This document shows positions 35,697 to 43,167 of a stretch of 48,448 nucleotides of DNA, one piece after another. How positions within the stretch are numbered: the first letter of the stretch is position 1; each line of letters opens with the position of its first letter. The translations under genes were made by a program, and so were the position numbers. Where the stretch lies: positions 1-48,448 of IMG/VR virus record IMGVR_UViG_3300007511_000038, one strand, 5' to 3'. The notes below the pieces were generated by a model, which saw only the letters and a program-made list of their open reading frames with translations, made no database searches and was not told the origin of the DNA. The DNA comes from a virus.

Positions 35697-36809
35697 ATGG
35701 CAACCACTTTTAAATCATTTTTAAACAGCGATGTTACAGCTACCAGAACGCTTCTTCACGAAGCAATCCCATTGACTGGTACAATCGTATCAGGTACGTA
35801 TAGCGAAGAAAACATCAAGAACTTCTCACATGGAATGTTTCAGTCTGTTTACGACTACCCATACTTAAGTTCTTCTGCGAACCACGTTTTTGATTTAACT
35901 GTAGGATATTCTGCAGACTCTCCTTTCTCTTCTAGTGATGCAACACAGAACGCTAAAAAGATTAATATCTATAACCAGATGGCTCAAATCCTTGTTGGTC
36001 ATGACGAAAGTGGATCTATCAGGCAATTCGACAGAGACGGCGACTTAACAGGGGGAGAGAAGATGACATCATGCTTCTTCCTCAATCTGTCAAGACTCCT
36101 TACAAAAGATGAAATTAAGAAAGGCTCTCTAGAGATTACATTATTCTCAGGCAGTAATTACGGCGACACCACCCACGGCGGCGATAATATGATTCTTTAT
36201 GATACAAACGCCGCAAATGATTATAGAGTAAATTCTCCTGCAGGCGAATACGGAATTCTATACAAAGATTCTGGCTCAACGGGTTCGCCAACAGCGAATA
36301 CCGGCTATGGTTTAATTTACTATCAAGCTGGCATTGCAGTTATCACCTCCTCTGTTTTCGGAGACTGGAGAACAGAAGACGAGGATGATGACACCGATGG
36401 AGAGAATATTACAAACTATTTTGGACTAGGTGAAGGCGATGGCGCTACTAACGATGGGCTATACACAACAGTTATGGACTCCTTCTTCTCAGGCTCTATC
36501 TCTGGTTCTTGCGGAGGCTTTAGAAACAGATTAAGGAACATACAGTTCAACAATACTACAGAGTTAAACTCAACAATTTATTTCTGTAGAGCTAATCACA
36601 ATGAATTCAACTATAGTTCCAACCCAACTTATCTAGATAGTAGTAAACTTAGGGTTAAGAACACTTCATTAGATAATCCGGTATCTTATATTACCAGTGT
36701 TGGTCTATACTCGGCAGATAATGAGTTGTTAGCAGTTGCTAAGTTGTCGGAACCTCTTAAGAAGACACCAGAAACGGAGTTAACCCTTAGAGTTCGGCTA
36801 GATTATTAG
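35697..36809 (+). CDS. Virion structural protein, C-terminal paralogue of the next gene
   Basis: 370 residues, SD AGAGGA seven bases before the ATG. The last 40 residues (YITSVGLYSADNELLAVAKL, SEPLKKTPETELTLRVRLDY) align without gaps to the end of the protein at 36837-38003 (YISKIGIYDEDKNLIAVTKL, ATPLKKTNKREYTFKMKLDF). Other shared features are an internal KGSLEITLFSG segment (KGSASLKFYVTG in the partner) and a Gly/Thr-rich ''GY.LIYYQAG.AVITSSVFG'' strand region. The C-terminal pattern S.GlY...neLlAvakls.PlkK resembles what is seen in proteins at the edge of phage tails and in contractile injection systems. Function unknown. Likely a structural or fibre-attachment subunit. Confidence 0.75.
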   Translation: MATTFKSFLNSDVTATRTLLHEAIPLTGTIVSGTYSEENIKNFSHGMFQSVYDYPYLSSSANHVFDLTVGYSADSPFSSSDATQNAKKINIYNQMAQILVGHDESGSIRQFDRDGDLTGGEKMTSCFFLNLSRLLTKDEIKKGSLEITLFSGSNYGDTTHGGDNMILYDTNAANDYRVNSPAGEYGILYKDSGSTGSPTANTGYGLIYYQAGIAVITSSVFGDWRTEDEDDDTDGENITNYFGLGEGDGATNDGLYTTVMDSFFSGSISGSCGGFRNRLRNIQFNNTTELNSTIYFCRANHNEFNYSSNPTYLDSSKLRVKNTSLDNPVSYITSVGLYSADNELLAVAKLSEPLKKTPETELTLRVRLDY

Positions 36810-36836
36810 TTTTTATAAGGGTTAGAGGATACTATT

Positions 36837-38003
36837 GTGCCCTTATATAAATTTAAATCCAACGACATTATCTATAATAGAATAAAGACGACTCCGAAAG
36901 TCGACTTTAAGATATATGCCAGCAAGATATACTATAAGAATGCAGACCAATCTGTAGTCAACAACGATACACCTTCCGGCCATATCAATCTTCACGAGAT
37001 TAATGTAAATAGAGGAGGCGCAAATCTCGTTTATCCCTTCTTACCGAAAGGATCAGACTTGTCTTCTTTCAAGACAACAGGTGCTACTTCCTTTTATAAT
37101 TCCTCATACGGAGACGACATAAAGGGCTCCTATCCTCTAACAGCTTCTATTTCCAGAGAAGTACACACAACAGGTTCGACGAGAAGCAAGATAGACGCCT
37201 TGCAGAATGTGTTAAATTTTTACAAGCCCATCAGTGAACACTATGGATACGAAACTAACTATGGCAACAAAGCCCATCAGGCACTCAACCTACTGAGCAT
37301 CCCTTCAATATTTTATGGTAACTCCATAAAGAAAGGTTCCGCAAGTTTAAAGTTCTATGTAACCGGAACTCTCATAGGAGAGCTTCATGATAAGAATAAA
37401 AATGGTGAGCTTGTTCAGGTTGGGCCTACTGGCAGTGTTGAGTCTGGCTCTGTAGCCGGCGTAGTTCTTTATAATGAGGGGTTCATAATATTAACCGGAA
37501 GTTGGGATCTTACAGATGGCGCCCATACCATCGACTATAATAATGACGGCTCTCCAGTAGCCTCTTCTTGGCTTCAGTACGCTGTCGGCGCGAATGACGG
37601 TATACCAGAAGAGTCAGCCCCTGCAGGAGCCACCGCGCGCGCCTCTGCAAGCTACGATTTAACATTCGAAGGCTTGAATTATATACCAACAGTTACAATG
37701 TTCGCGCATGCTCCAAAAGGAGTGCTAAATAATTCTAGTAATCCCACCTTTGTACAGTCGGGCTCATATGTGACGGCGACTAGTTCTCTAAATTCATATG
37801 TAGAGAATGATCAGGTTCCTATTAAAAATATTGTATCTAGTTCATATACTGGATATGACGAAAGCTTCGAAAGAGAAACATATATTTCTAAAATTGGCAT
37901 CTATGATGAGGATAAAAACCTTATTGCCGTAACAAAATTGGCAACTCCTCTTAAAAAAACCAACAAAAGAGAGTATACTTTTAAGATGAAGCTGGATTTT
38001 TAA
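36837..38003 (+). CDS. Virion structural protein, C-terminal paralogue of the previous gene
   Basis: 388 residues, GTG start at 36837 with SD AGAGGA (36821-36826 region) about nine bases upstream; no in-frame ATG lies near. The N-terminal 150 residues (MPLYKFKSNDIIYNRIKTTP) differ from its upstream paralogue, while the region from KKGSASLKFYVTG to the C-terminal LATPLKKTNKREYTFKMKLDF matches it. The pair probably arose by duplication and then diverged at the N-terminus, which is consistent with proteins that bind different partners but share a fold. Its stop abuts the ATG of the resolvase gene, so the structural operon runs straight into the replication genes. No enzymatic motif. Confidence 0.75.
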   Translation: MPLYKFKSNDIIYNRIKTTPKVDFKIYASKIYYKNADQSVVNNDTPSGHINLHEINVNRGGANLVYPFLPKGSDLSSFKTTGATSFYNSSYGDDIKGSYPLTASISREVHTTGSTRSKIDALQNVLNFYKPISEHYGYETNYGNKAHQALNLLSIPSIFYGNSIKKGSASLKFYVTGTLIGELHDKNKNGELVQVGPTGSVESGSVAGVVLYNEGFIILTGSWDLTDGAHTIDYNNDGSPVASSWLQYAVGANDGIPEESAPAGATARASASYDLTFEGLNYIPTVTMFAHAPKGVLNNSSNPTFVQSGSYVTATSSLNSYVENDQVPIKNIVSSSYTGYDESFERETYISKIGIYDEDKNLIAVTKLATPLKKTNKREYTFKMKLDF

Positions 38004-38522
38004 ATGATACTCGGATTAGATGTTAGTACTAGCATCACAGGCGCCACTTTATTAGACAATGGCAAAATTGTTTTTTGTGAGGCTTGGGATACTAGAAAAC
38101 TTAAAACTATTTTTGAAAAAGCAGAATTTGTAAAAGAGAAATTAGAAGCTTTACCCGTTGGTGTCGAAGAGATTTTTATAGAAGAACCGTTTACGTTCTT
38201 TAAATCAGGCGGTTCTTCTGCCAAAACCATGGCAAAATTACAAGCGTTTAACGGAGTAGTATCATGGATGTGTTACGACATATATGGCATAGTGCCCAGC
38301 TATCTAACCGCAGGACAAGCGCGCAAACACTGTGGCATAACTGTTCCTCGCGGCACAAAAGCTAAAGAAAAAGTTTTAGAACATTTGTTGACAAACGAAG
38401 AAGAATTTGATATTCTTTATACAAGACATGGAAATCCCAAAGCCGGCGAGTACGACCGAGCAGATTCTTTGGTGATGGCCAAGGCAGGTTCTATAGTTTG
38501 TTGTCAGAAAGAAAAAAGCTAA
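38004..38522 (+). CDS. RuvC-like Holliday junction resolvase
   Basis: 172 residues, the size of E. coli RuvC (173). The RNase H-fold acidic residues are visible: GLDVSTSITGATLLD (D6), FIEEPFTF (E60/E61) and EYDRADSLVMAKAG (D151, D154). RuvC-type enzymes cut four-way DNA junctions; in a phage they debranch replicating DNA before packaging, the job T4 gives to endonuclease VII (gp49). The ATG directly follows the stop of the last structural gene, and the 3' end overlaps the primase start by 25 bases, so it is cotranslated with replication genes. Whether it prefers four-way or other branched DNA cannot be read from sequence. Confidence 0.9.
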   Translation: MILGLDVSTSITGATLLDNGKIVFCEAWDTRKLKTIFEKAEFVKEKLEALPVGVEEIFIEEPFTFFKSGGSSAKTMAKLQAFNGVVSWMCYDIYGIVPSYLTAGQARKHCGITVPRGTKAKEKVLEHLLTNEEEFDILYTRHGNPKAGEYDRADSLVMAKAGSIVCCQKEKS

Positions 38523-39439
38523 ACATACTCGTTGACATTCTAGGCAATAACTATAAGTCTGGCAATGAGCTTTTATTCTTCTGTCCAAAATGCGACCACC
38601 ACAAGCGAAAGCTATCTGTTAATATCGATAAAGACGCTTTTAAGTGTTGGATCTGTGATTATCACGGTAGGTCTATACGCCGCTTAGTCAGAAGGTACGG
38701 CAGCTTTAACCAAAGAAGCGAGTGGGATGAACTCACTGGCAGAGTAGATCTAGATTTATTTGGAGAAGACCTTTTTGAAGATGAACCAGAAAGAGAAGAA
38801 CAGAAAATTAAATTACCAGAGGCGTTTATATCCTTAACTAGTGCCTCACTACCAGTGCATGCGCGCCCTGCAATAAAATATCTCAGAAGCAGGGGTGTAA
38901 CAAACAAAGATATTACAAGATGGAAAATAGGCTATTGCCCTACCGGCGAGTATGCCGGCCGCATAGTCATCCCGTCATTCGGCACCTCCGGATACTGTAA
39001 TTACTTTGTGTCAAGAACCTACTCTAGCGAGTGGCCCAAGTATAAGAATCCTCAAGTAAGCAGAGATATAGTTTTCAACCATCTTTACGTAGATTGGGAT
39101 AGCGATTTAATATTGGTTGAAGGTGCCTTCGATGCTATTGTGTCAGGAGCTAATTCTGTTCCCCTTCTGGGCTCTTCGATCAGAGAGAACGCAGAATTAT
39201 TTCAGGAAATAGTAAAAAATGATACTCCTGTTTATATAGCTTTAGACCCAGACGCTGAAAAAAAATCAATGTATCTGGTCAATAGATTACTAGAGTATGG
39301 TATAGAAGTACATAAGATTAACATTTCTCCATATCCGGATGTAGCGGAGATGACAAAAGAAATTTTTAATAAAAGAAAAAAAGAAGCTGAATTAATGAAT
39401 ACAGATAACTATTTACTTAGAGCGATTAATTCTATTTAG
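38498..39439 (+). CDS. 61: DNA primase, T4 gp61 / T7-type with zinc ribbon and Toprim
   Basis: 313 residues (T4 gp61: 342). It makes RNA primers for lagging-strand synthesis. The N-terminal zinc ribbon is LLFFCPKCDHHK (C29, C32) and FKCWICDYHG (C50, C53). The RNA-polymerase-like part has IKYLRSRGVTNKDITRWKIG and GRIVIPS. The Toprim core shows LILVEGAFDAI (E208) and YIALDPDAEKK (D250, D252). I see only TTG codons at the 5' end (38498, 38501) in frame with no early ATG, so a TTG start inside the resolvase gene is likely; AAGG at 38481-38484 may serve as SD. The exact start is uncertain by a codon or so. No helicase domain is fused. Confidence 0.88.
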   Translation: MLSERKKLNILVDILGNNYKSGNELLFFCPKCDHHKRKLSVNIDKDAFKCWICDYHGRSIRRLVRRYGSFNQRSEWDELTGRVDLDLFGEDLFEDEPEREEQKIKLPEAFISLTSASLPVHARPAIKYLRSRGVTNKDITRWKIGYCPTGEYAGRIVIPSFGTSGYCNYFVSRTYSSEWPKYKNPQVSRDIVFNHLYVDWDSDLILVEGAFDAIVSGANSVPLLGSSIRENAELFQEIVKNDTPVYIALDPDAEKKSMYLVNRLLEYGIEVHKINISPYPDVAEMTKEIFNKRKKEAELMNTDNYLLRAINSI

Positions 39440-39465
39440 TAGAGTTTAAAATAGAGGAAAACAAA

Positions 39466-39585
39466 ATGAAAATATTAAAACTAACCTTACACAGGCTAAT
39501 AAACACATTTAATCTAAAGCATTGCTGCTGTTGCTGTGGTTGCTGCACATGTGAACATTGCCATGGAAGCTGCAATACGCTATGA
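39466..39585 (+). CDS. 39-residue cysteine-rich miniprotein
   Basis: ATG 39466 has SD AGAGGA (39453-39458) seven bases upstream and the frame ends at TGA 39583-39585, overlapping the ATG of the next gene. The product has an amphipathic basic helix (KILKLTLHRLINTFNLKH) followed by a block with ten cysteines in the last 20 residues: C20-C24, C26, C27, C29, C32, C36, plus H19, H31 and H33 (core CCCCCGCCTCEHCHGSC). The block is encoded by a TGC/TGT-rich stretch at 39523-39551. A metal-binding or membrane-associated role is possible. I recognise no family. It is below usual gene-calling length, but the RBS, coupling and composition support it. Confidence 0.65.
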   Translation: MKILKLTLHRLINTFNLKHCCCCCGCCTCEHCHGSCNTL

Positions 39586-39932
39586 ACATTACAGGTAAAA
39601 GACTTAATAAAATTATTAAAGAAGAATTGGATATTTTTCTTAATCAAGAAGGCGTCGAAGCCTCGGACGTTACAAATTTAAGAGAGCCGGTCCCTAGCGA
39701 CCCTGACGCCCTAGCTAATAATATTAAAATCGCTTCTAGAATTTTGGAAGAGCTAGTCGGCGGAGAATTGGCCGAACTTGCTGGCGTAACTAAGAAGCTA
39801 GCAGAAGCAGCACAAGCTCTCAGAGAAGTTCTTGACGAATTATCAGTTAAGAATCCAAATCATTTAGGCGATCACGAAGTCGAAGTTCCAACGCCACAGC
39901 CTGCTGCACCAGGAACTACAATTATTCCTTGA
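39582..39932 (+). CDS. Small helical protein of unknown function
   Basis: 116 residues from ATG 39582, which overlaps the miniprotein stop as ATGA; a TTG at 39558 in the same frame is the alternative but lacks an SD. Residues 5-20 (GKRLNKIIKEELDIFL) and 45-90 (SRILEELVGGELAELAGV, LAEAAQALREVLDEL) are amphipathic helices, followed by a Pro-rich C-terminus (EVEVPTPQPAAPGTTIIP). The ''ITGKRLNKIIKEEL'' opening resembles starts of other small phage proteins, possibly scaffold- or capsid-associated, but I cannot name one. It stands between the primase and the SbcCD-type gene; its last bases overlap the candidate promoter of the latter. Confidence 0.7.
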   Translation: MNITGKRLNKIIKEELDIFLNQEGVEASDVTNLREPVPSDPDALANNIKIASRILEELVGGELAELAGVTKKLAEAAQALREVLDELSVKNPNHLGDHEVEVPTPQPAAPGTTIIP

Positions 39933-39964: not shown

Positions 39965-39987
39965 TAGGATTGAGTATAGGGACAAGT

Positions 39988-42900
39988 ATGCGTTTTGCAC
40001 ACCTAGCTGACACTCATATTCGGAATCTCAAATATCACAGAGAGTACCGGGTAGTTTTCAGTCAGCTTTATGATCTTCTTCGAGAGAAGAAGGTTGATTA
40101 TATTATACATTGCGGAGATATCGCACACACAAAGACTCAGATTTCGCCTGAGTTTGTTAAAATGTGTTCTGATTTTTTCAAAAATCTAGCAGATATTGCT
40201 CCGACTTACATTATACCGGGCAACCATGACGGCAACTTGCGTAACAGCAGCCGTATGGATGCTCTGACGCCCATTGTAGAGGCTTTGGAGCACAAGGACC
40301 TACATCTACTTAAGAACTCGGGAGAAGAGCGCTTAGGGTGTATGGGGAGGAATGATATAGAGGAGTCTAATTTTGTATTGAACGTACTATCGGTCTTCGA
40401 TCGCGACAATTGGATTAAACCTACAGACGATTCTTCCGTGAATATCGCTCTTTATCACGGCGCAATCTCCAATTCCAAGACTGACCTAGGTTGGATCATG
40501 GAACACGGAGAAGATGAACTATCTATCTTCCAAGATTTTGATTATGCTTTCTTGGGAGACATTCATAAGACTAATCAGGTGCTTGATCACGATGGCAAGG
40601 TAAGATACCCAGGATCGACAGTTCAGCAGAACCATGGCGAGACTAACGATAAGGGTTTCTTACTCTGGGATATTGAAGACAAGGATAATTATGAATGTGA
40701 GCATATCTCAATTTCAAATCCTTCGCCTTTCATAACTATTGAGTTAACTCCAAAGGGCCGTATGCCCAAGAAAACAGTCGTTCCTGCAGGCGCACGCATC
40801 AGATTGATAACCAATACCAGTTTACCTCTAGATACCGTCAGAAAGGCTATAGAGGTGGCAAATACGAGATTTAAGCCAGAGTCCATTACCTTCTTGAACA
40901 AAGCAAACGGAAGATCTTCTGTGGAAGATATAGCAGGTTCCCTGGAAGAAGGAGATTTGAGAGATATAAATGTACAGGAGGAGCTAATTTCTGAATATCT
41001 GAAAGATCACGAAGTTACAGACGAAACTTTAGATCTTATATATAAGATGAACAGGAAGTATAACAATATTGTTGAGCAAGAAGAAGAGGTTTCTAGAAAT
41101 ATTAATTGGAATCTGAAAAAGCTTAAGTGGTCTAACTTGTTTAATTATGGAGAAGAGAATGAAATTGATTTCGAGAATGTAAATGGAATTATCGGCATCC
41201 TAGGAAAGAATTATTCAGGAAAATCTAGTATTGTTGACAGCCTACTTTACACTCTTTACAATTCAACCTCTAAAAACAACAGAAAGAATCTTAATGTAAT
41301 TAATCAGAACAAAGAGAGTTGTGAAGGAGAAGTGCAAATTTCAGTTGGCCACAACACCTATGTTGTGAGAAGGATTTCAGAGAAATATACTAAGAAGCTG
41401 AAGGGCGAGGTGACATTAGAAGCTAAGACAGATTTGGATTTCTTGAAAATAGATATTTTGACTGGCGAACAGAAGTCTCTTAATGGCTTAAGCCGCGCGG
41501 ACACTGACAAGAATATTCGTAAAATATTCGGAACGCTCGATGATTTTTTATTGACATCGATGGCCGGCCAGCTTAACTCTCTTTCTTTCATAGGCGAAGG
41601 CTCAACAAGAAGGAAAGAGATACTTGCTAAGTTTCTTGACTTAGAAATTTTTGAGAAAAAATTTAAACTGGCAAAAGAACAAAGTTCAGACCTCAGAGCA
41701 ACGAACAGAAAATTCCAAGATATTGATTTTAAAAAAGAAATTACCGAAGCAAGAAAAGAATTGGCCCTCAAAGAGATTCTTTCTGATAGAAAGAAGAAGG
41801 AATGTGTAGATTTTCAAAATGAAATAGAGTCTAAGACAGAATCTTTGAACGAATTAATCAATGCTATCGATTCTATACCTACGGAAATTATTGATATTAA
41901 ACAGGTTTTAGAAGAAATACAAAAAACTGAAGAAATGTCTACAAAAATTAAAGACGATAATAATTATTTAGTCAAAAATATCCACGAGGAAAAAGAATTA
42001 CTAGAAAAAATCAACAATTTTCTAAATCAATTTAATTTCGAAGATTTGCAGTCAAAATTAGATTTAAAATATGAAAATGAGAAACAGTTAGAAGAATTCG
42101 AGAAAGAATATGAAAAGCTAGAGATTCAGCTTAAGAACTATAATCAAAAAATTACTTCTCTAGAAGAAGTTCCCTGTGGGCCAGAGTTTTCTCATTGCAA
42201 ATTTATCAAAGACGCTTACACAGCAAAGGGTAAAAGCACTGAAACACAGGTGGCATTAGATAATCTATCCATAAACAAAAATGGACTGATAAAAAAAATA
42301 TCTGATACAAATTCCAATAAGCTTGTCGAGCATCTGGAGAAATATGAACAAGTTCTAGAGAGAAAAAATACGGTGGAGAGGAATATATCTAGCATGGAGC
42401 TTTCCTTGCAGAAGAATAAGACGAAACTAGTAAAAATCAAAACAGAGCTTGCATCTGTTAAAGAGAAAAAGATAGAATATCAACAAAACAAGGATGTTAT
42501 TGATAATCTAGAGAACCTTTTGCTACACAGGGGTAAACTACAAAATTCTCTAGACGAACTGAGAATTAAACATGAAAGATGTCAGAATGAATTAATGGAT
42601 TTATATAAATCTCATGGATCTTTAGAAGAGAAAATCAATACTTTAGTAGTATCAGAGGAGGAATACAATACTCTTCAAGAAGAATATTCTTCGGTAGACT
42701 TATATGCCAAATGTGTGCACAGCAACGGTATATCTTATGATATTATCAAGAAGAAGCTTCCTGTGATTAATAAAGAAATAGCAAAAGTTCTGGCCAATAT
42801 TGTTGAATTTGAAGTCTTCTTTGAGGACGATGGAAGAAAGCTAGACATTCTGATTAAGCATCCCAGGCACGAGGCTCGACCAATTGAGCTAGGCTCCGGA

Positions 42901-43167
42901 GCGGAGAAGACTATTGCTTCGATGGCCATTCGCTTGGCTCTGTTAAACGTATCTAATCTTCCCAAGGGCGATACATTTATATTAGACGAGCCTGGAACCG
43001 CACTAGACGAAGAAAATATGGAAGGGTTCATAAGAATCTTAGATATGATCAAGTCTCAGTTTAAAACTGTTATACTAATTTCTCACTTAGACTCGCTAAA
43101 AGATTGCGTGGACCAACAAATTATTATCGACAAAGATAGTTATGGCTACGCTAGCGTAAAATACTAG
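39988..43167 (+). CDS. 47-46: Fused gp47/gp46 (SbcD-SbcC, Mre11-Rad50 type) recombination nuclease-ATPase
   Basis: 1059 residues. Residues 1 to about 345 are a calcineurin-type phosphoesterase as in T4 gp47/SbcD: FAHLADTHIRN (D8, H10), HCGDIAH (D44), IPGNHDG (N79, H80), LYHGAI and FLGDIHK. Residues from about 385 on are a Rad50/SbcC ATPase as in gp46: Walker A GILGKNYSGKSS (about 402-414), long coiled coils, a hook region VPCGPEFSHCKF with cysteines six apart instead of the usual CxxC, signature ELGSGAEKTIAS (about 967) and Walker B TFILDEPGTALD (about 998). T4 gp47 (339) and gp46 (560) are separate genes. The complex processes double-strand ends for recombination-dependent replication and host DNA turnover. 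ATG 39988 with SD AGGGA is preferred over TTG 39970. Confidence 0.9.
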   Translation: MRFAHLADTHIRNLKYHREYRVVFSQLYDLLREKKVDYIIHCGDIAHTKTQISPEFVKMCSDFFKNLADIAPTYIIPGNHDGNLRNSSRMDALTPIVEALEHKDLHLLKNSGEERLGCMGRNDIEESNFVLNVLSVFDRDNWIKPTDDSSVNIALYHGAISNSKTDLGWIMEHGEDELSIFQDFDYAFLGDIHKTNQVLDHDGKVRYPGSTVQQNHGETNDKGFLLWDIEDKDNYECEHISISNPSPFITIELTPKGRMPKKTVVPAGARIRLITNTSLPLDTVRKAIEVANTRFKPESITFLNKANGRSSVEDIAGSLEEGDLRDINVQEELISEYLKDHEVTDETLDLIYKMNRKYNNIVEQEEEVSRNINWNLKKLKWSNLFNYGEENEIDFENVNGIIGILGKNYSGKSSIVDSLLYTLYNSTSKNNRKNLNVINQNKESCEGEVQISVGHNTYVVRRISEKYTKKLKGEVTLEAKTDLDFLKIDILTGEQKSLNGLSRADTDKNIRKIFGTLDDFLLTSMAGQLNSLSFIGEGSTRRKEILAKFLDLEIFEKKFKLAKEQSSDLRATNRKFQDIDFKKEITEARKELALKEILSDRKKKECVDFQNEIESKTESLNELINAIDSIPTEIIDIKQVLEEIQKTEEMSTKIKDDNNYLVKNIHEEKELLEKINNFLNQFNFEDLQSKLDLKYENEKQLEEFEKEYEKLEIQLKNYNQKITSLEEVPCGPEFSHCKFIKDAYTAKGKSTETQVALDNLSINKNGLIKKISDTNSNKLVEHLEKYEQVLERKNTVERNISSMELSLQKNKTKLVKIKTELASVKEKKIEYQQNKDVIDNLENLLLHRGKLQNSLDELRIKHERCQNELMDLYKSHGSLEEKINTLVVSEEEYNTLQEEYSSVDLYAKCVHSNGISYDIIKKKLPVINKEIAKVLANIVEFEVFFEDDGRKLDILIKHPRHEARPIELGSGAEKTIASMAIRLALLNVSNLPKGDTFILDEPGTALDEENMEGFIRILDMIKSQFKTVILISHLDSLKDCVDQQIIIDKDSYGYASVKY

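Follow-up and report, generated by a model that had tools for sequence, protein, structure and literature searches.

The locus examined here raises the question of whether a frame encoding only 39 residues, crowded with cysteine codons, is a gene at all and, if so, what its product could do for a phage. It lies in the window, by which we mean the whole stretch of 48,448 nucleotides of viral DNA that was analysed (positions 1 to 48,448 of IMG/VR record IMGVR_UViG_3300007511_000038). Translation of positions 39466-39585 gives MKILKLTLHRLINTFNLKHCCCCCGCCTCEHCHGSCNTL, confirming a preliminary description of a 39-residue miniprotein with ten cysteines (20-24, 26, 27, 29, 32 and 36), the first five of them consecutive. 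The good Shine-Dalgarno sequence and the stop/start overlap claimed in that description are also present: GAGGA lies 7 nt from the ATG, with a counterpart of at least 4 nt before 72 of the 73 family members that have enough upstream DNA, and the following frame opens with an ATG at 39582 that overlaps the TGA stop (39583-39585). The features of the locus are as follows.

38498 to 39439, plus strand: DnaG-type primase, the upstream neighbour (phrog_47, E 3e-38; TTG start as listed)
39454 to 39458, plus strand: Shine-Dalgarno sequence GAGGA, read from the sequence
39466 to 39585, plus strand: miniprotein gene including its stop, 39 aa and 10 Cys, supported by homologs and a profile match
39466 to 39519, plus strand: N-terminal basic amphipathic segment M1-K18, with the conserved His9 within it
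39520 to 39546, plus strand: core HCCCCCGCC (H19-C27), delimited by the alignment of 65 sequences
39547 to 39582, plus strand: variable tail, in which the final three Cys (C29, C32, C36) lie at spacings that differ across the family
39582 to 39932, plus strand: downstream neighbour of 116 aa, starting MNITGKRLNKIIKEEL, its ATG overlapping the miniprotein stop; read from the sequence

The order in the window is thus primase, miniprotein, one small gene and then a fused SbcD-SbcC protein. The 116-aa product of the small gene (39582..39932) matched no family. The fused protein (39970-43167) is a single chain of 1065 aa in which an SbcD-like phosphoesterase is joined to an SbcC-like ATPase, whereas gp47 and gp46 are separate proteins in T4. 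Elsewhere in the window, adjacent genes for 370 and 388 aa (35697-38003) belong to one sequence cluster, and many relatives keep this pair 5' of their RuvC-like and primase genes; a weak match to a phage late sigma factor was found at 978-1658 (phrog_234, E 1e-4).

It is nearly certain that the miniprotein frame is a real gene; its product belongs to a family of very small proteins not described before. A search for relatives of the primase, made without regard to the miniprotein, yielded 19 loci, and a miniprotein homolog lies directly 3' of the primase in four of them (L002, L007, L008 and L010). Scanning IMG/VR DNA with the back-translated HCCCCCGCCxC alone gave 59 contigs, in all of which the Cys block is preceded by the N-terminal segment MKxxLHxLxNLFN or a truncated or diverged form of it. 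Two scans with the N-terminal segment, one of them making no requirement for the second His, the Gly or the later Cys, recovered 51 and 54 stretches, which came almost entirely from the same loci, with the full Cys block behind. Each part of the protein therefore predicts the other, which would not be expected of a chance repeat. The pattern scans yielded about 75 miniprotein loci (the protein of L090 ends at a contig edge) and 65 distinct complete proteins. In the window itself, the DNA pattern of the Cys block occurs once, against none in 100 shuffles, and the family profile matches the miniprotein in its own record at E 5.4e-14, a value to which the window sequence contributes as a member of the profile.

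Alignment of the 65 complete proteins gave the consensus MKxxLHKLxNLFNxxHCCCCCGCCxCxxCxGxC. H19, C22, C23, C24 and C27 are invariant, C20, C21, G25 and C26 are conserved at 90% or more, and two His reach at least 90%. The total number of Cys is 10 in 57 proteins, 9 in three, 11 in four and 12 in one, and the last two or three are spaced CxxCxxxC, CxxxCC, CCC or otherwise. Pooled over 56 close pairs, pN/pS is about 0.10, a ratio partly shaped by the pattern scans; in the N-terminal codons outside the first scan it is 0.36, an upper bound, with synonymous sites saturated. Between the window and its nearest relative, L022 (the same contig as L002, which was found via its primase), we counted 12 synonymous differences over 22.5 sites and 5 nonsynonymous differences over 94.5 sites. 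The preliminary description had tied the gene to conservation of the frame in close relatives and to purifying selection, and both were found, the former in primase-selected homologs as well as in the pattern-scan family. Conservation, Shine-Dalgarno sequences and purifying selection together support the view that the miniprotein is translated and selected. The shortness of the frame and its repetitive codons could have suggested a chance ORF, but against 65 distinct conserved proteins with these two further properties the probability of such an origin is practically nil, and conservation at the sequence level already refutes it. The supposed tendency of the Cys tract to change copy number was not borne out, since the five-Cys run is present at fixed length in 63 of the 65 members. 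Both TGC and TGT are used at every Cys codon across the family, and this mixture gives no sign of slippage in the tract.

A gene for the major capsid protein gp23 is present in 31 of the 36 records examined, which are mostly miniprotein carriers; the carriers are therefore T4-like, and the miniprotein is widespread in uncultured T4-like phages. The nearest named relatives of the gp23 of L213 are Flavobacterium phage immuto and Microcystis phage Mel-JY01, at about 45% identity. Presence is patchy, as a profile search found the miniprotein in 5 of the 19 primase-selected records. The same type of search found none in eight named or deposited phage genomes, of which five contain CCCC runs that proved on individual inspection to be chance frames, and 396 genomes from a single bacterial phylum likewise gave no miniprotein, in a search run without a positive control. 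A loose CCCCCGCC pattern applied to bacterial genomes gave unrelated frames only among the loci listed, at least 80 in number. Two bacterial small ORFs with Cys runs, MKIKAKKVEKIKPTVAAGCCCCCGCC (Bacillus, L155) and MSLIQPATPSLFSGCCCGCCCCCCGCCCVD (Buttiauxella, L156), bear no sequence relation to the miniprotein and are perhaps peptide precursors.

The gene is present in a single copy in most records and has many different neighbours; it is therefore a stand-alone accessory gene found in many positions, outside the primase unit. The primase is directly 5' in 12 of 73 miniprotein loci, and other upstream contexts include an M50-type protease-like gene, a Pol III alpha-like gene and genes near lysis functions (identities assigned by eye). 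The replication-module setting of the preliminary description thus holds at the window locus but not as a family trait, and the suggested modulation of an adjoining primase or nuclease finds no backing in the remaining loci, where the gene stands beside unrelated genes. A late-promoter motif (TATAAATA) was sought upstream of 71 miniprotein genes and found before none. Seven loci (L025, L046, L049, L060, L066, L072 and L075) share an identical 22-nt leader (cgtaaaagcggaggaataaaaa) 5' of the start codon, with differing proteins. A second copy exists in G023, where a degenerate tandem version, MKKILNKKHCCCCCGCCKWPIPLRYFAHLL, lies immediately 5' of the intact gene (L215, 140000-150000). Many other small proteins of these phages begin with one of two N-terminal tags, MKITKxxLxxIIKE(E) (n=84) or MKxLLxEWRKFLxE (n=22), seen at 39582-39932 and in L002-L092, L211 and L212. 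Their (L/I)xE cleavage site and their likeness to T4 capsid-targeting propeptides suggest that the tagged proteins may be head proteins, injected in large variety.

What might such a miniprotein do? Compared with Pfam, PHROGs and NCBIfam, the 65 members gave no meaningful match, and allowing E values up to 1 brought only sub-threshold matches, to AT_hook in two members and three stray ones to two other families. No curated metallothionein model of Pfam or NCBIfam was among them. The PDB contained neither a sequence nor a fold match, and the miniprotein thus remains unassigned in these four resources, as first described. A tblastn search of annotated phages also returned no match, probably because the Cys run was masked as low complexity. 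A search of the available literature found no phage metallothionein; the miniprotein may already be listed in the small-phage-gene catalogue of Fremin et al. 2022.

Metal binding is the leading idea. We propose, with the scales about evenly balanced, that the miniprotein is an accessory protein of T4-like phages working as a metal-thiolate protein with a docking helix. The simplest interpretation is a metal-thiolate cluster, because the number of Cys is held, their spacing is loose and the Cys domain is nearly free of aromatic residues; indeed, a total of 10 in most members despite varied tail spacing is more in keeping with a required number of ligands than with disulfides in a set arrangement. 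Inside the host, where the cytoplasm is reducing, the ten Cys and the two conserved His would enclose a small number of Zn(II) or Cu(I) ions. The cyanobacterial metallothionein SmtA is reported to bind 3-4 Zn(II) (PMC10612145), and by analogy with SmtA-type proteins each miniprotein might hold 3-4 Zn. The short basic helix would then dock the metal knot on a protein, on the inner membrane or, in variants with an AT-hook, on DNA. Such a tethered metallothionein or zinc-clip could withdraw or buffer metal during infection, or cap a host metalloprotein. Across the family the N-terminal part is amphipathic (mean moment 0.61, z about 2.0 against permuted residues) and basic (mean +2.5), which suits a docking role. 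The 20-residue basic amphipathic helix of the preliminary description therefore stands as to its character, but its length is nearer 12 residues, the AlphaFold model, of low confidence (pLDDT 59.5) and from a method that cannot place metals, having a helix at residues 4-15. No metal-handling gene was recognised next to the miniprotein, and no conserved neighbours that could indicate a pathway were found across its loci.

The same helix, present in nearly all members, could also lie on the inner membrane while the Cys block cross-links or oligomerises, aiding lysis or superinfection exclusion. A short membrane protein, holin-like by eye, adjoins the miniprotein in L034, L073 and L078, and an Rz-like gene follows it in L034, L078 and L084, the window member of that cluster having an Rz-like match as well. 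We nevertheless consider a membrane-active peptide unlikely: lysis genes are distant from most copies, there is no hydrophobic stretch of transmembrane length, helix hydrophobicity is about 0.06 in the window and consensus segments, and the fixed total of ten Cys is left unexplained. Five loci carry a C-terminal AT-hook-like RRRGRPRK, and the Pfam AT_hook match in two members, weak and below threshold, reaches E 0.18. A zinc-knot regulator that acts on DNA, and that shows this openly where an AT-hook is present, could account for these tails, but they are absent from all other members, among them the window miniprotein, which has no RGRP core with basic flanks; we therefore hold this role to be distinctly improbable. 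Yet another function would lie in the codons themselves, with ribosomes stalling at the Cys codons to sense cysteine supply and control the next gene. As described in PMC9031893, Cys-codon runs in mycobacterial short ORFs act in this way (Canestrari et al. 2020), and the ATGA overlap with the next gene would fit. Such a leader peptide is largely refuted and, in our view, extremely improbable, because amino-acid conservation spans the entire peptide, the downstream genes vary among loci, and the surroundings of the ORF show neither a plus-strand terminator nor an Rfam match, their RNA folding being unremarkable (z +1.19).

The tags of neighbouring genes, MKITKxxLxxIIKE and MKxLLxEWRKFLxE, resemble T4 capsid-targeting propeptides, and the N-terminal helix might accordingly be a non-cleaved tag that directs the Cys-rich protein into the head, from which it would enter the host along with the DNA. 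For T4, residues 1-10 are enough for capsid targeting, and targeting can survive a change that abolishes cleavage (PMC9026906). The hydrophobic register of the tags (K2 and positions 4, 5, 8, 11 and 12) is found in 95% of miniproteins and in 3 of 792 other ORFs, but in a test formulated after both groups had been seen; moreover, residue-level similarity to the tags reaches only the 85th percentile of other ORFs, and the family consensus lacks a gp21 cleavage site, (L/I)xE, at the end of the helix. Packaging in the capsid thus seems to us a clearly low-probability role. A metal-thiolate miniprotein that is itself packed through its non-cleaved helix, then injected to seize or deliver host metal at the onset of infection, would combine the two ideas and is very improbable as a whole.

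Uncultured T4-like phages thus carry a widespread family, with a five-Cys run, ten Cys in total and an amphipathic helix, that has no match in the libraries searched. If the metal-thiolate proposal is true, phages own a metallothionein-like tool, and phage-host competition for metal becomes testable with a peptide short enough for synthesis. The family also illustrates how masking can hide such proteins, with 0 matches by tblastn in annotated phages against 59 contigs by DNA patterns in IMG/VR.

Metallothioneins are small and Cys-rich, with about 15-35% Cys, and SmtA has 56 aa. The miniprotein resembles them, especially the bacterial SmtA type, in its very small size, its Cys content of about 30%, its combination of His with Cys and an aromatic-poor Cys domain (one Tyr among 66 sequences, with one conserved Phe in the helix), and the family, at 31-49 aa and mostly 10 Cys, falls within the metallothionein range of size and Cys content. 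It differs in being shorter than SmtA, in its separate basic amphipathic helix, in being phage-encoded and in having no sequence match, its C5GC2 run being unmatched by the metallothionein models searched. We do not file it as a metallothionein because the sequence test failed despite this compositional likeness. With the mycobacterial polycysteine attenuators it shares a short ORF, consecutive Cys codons and another gene downstream, but those are leaderless regulators, whereas the miniprotein has a Shine-Dalgarno sequence, a wholly conserved protein and an inconstant downstream gene. From the internal head proteins IPI-IPIII of T4 it differs by its Cys-rich body and the absence of a cleavage site; like them, it is a small accessory protein of T4-like phages, and its N-terminal hydrophobic register resembles the capsid-targeting-like tags of neighbouring genes.
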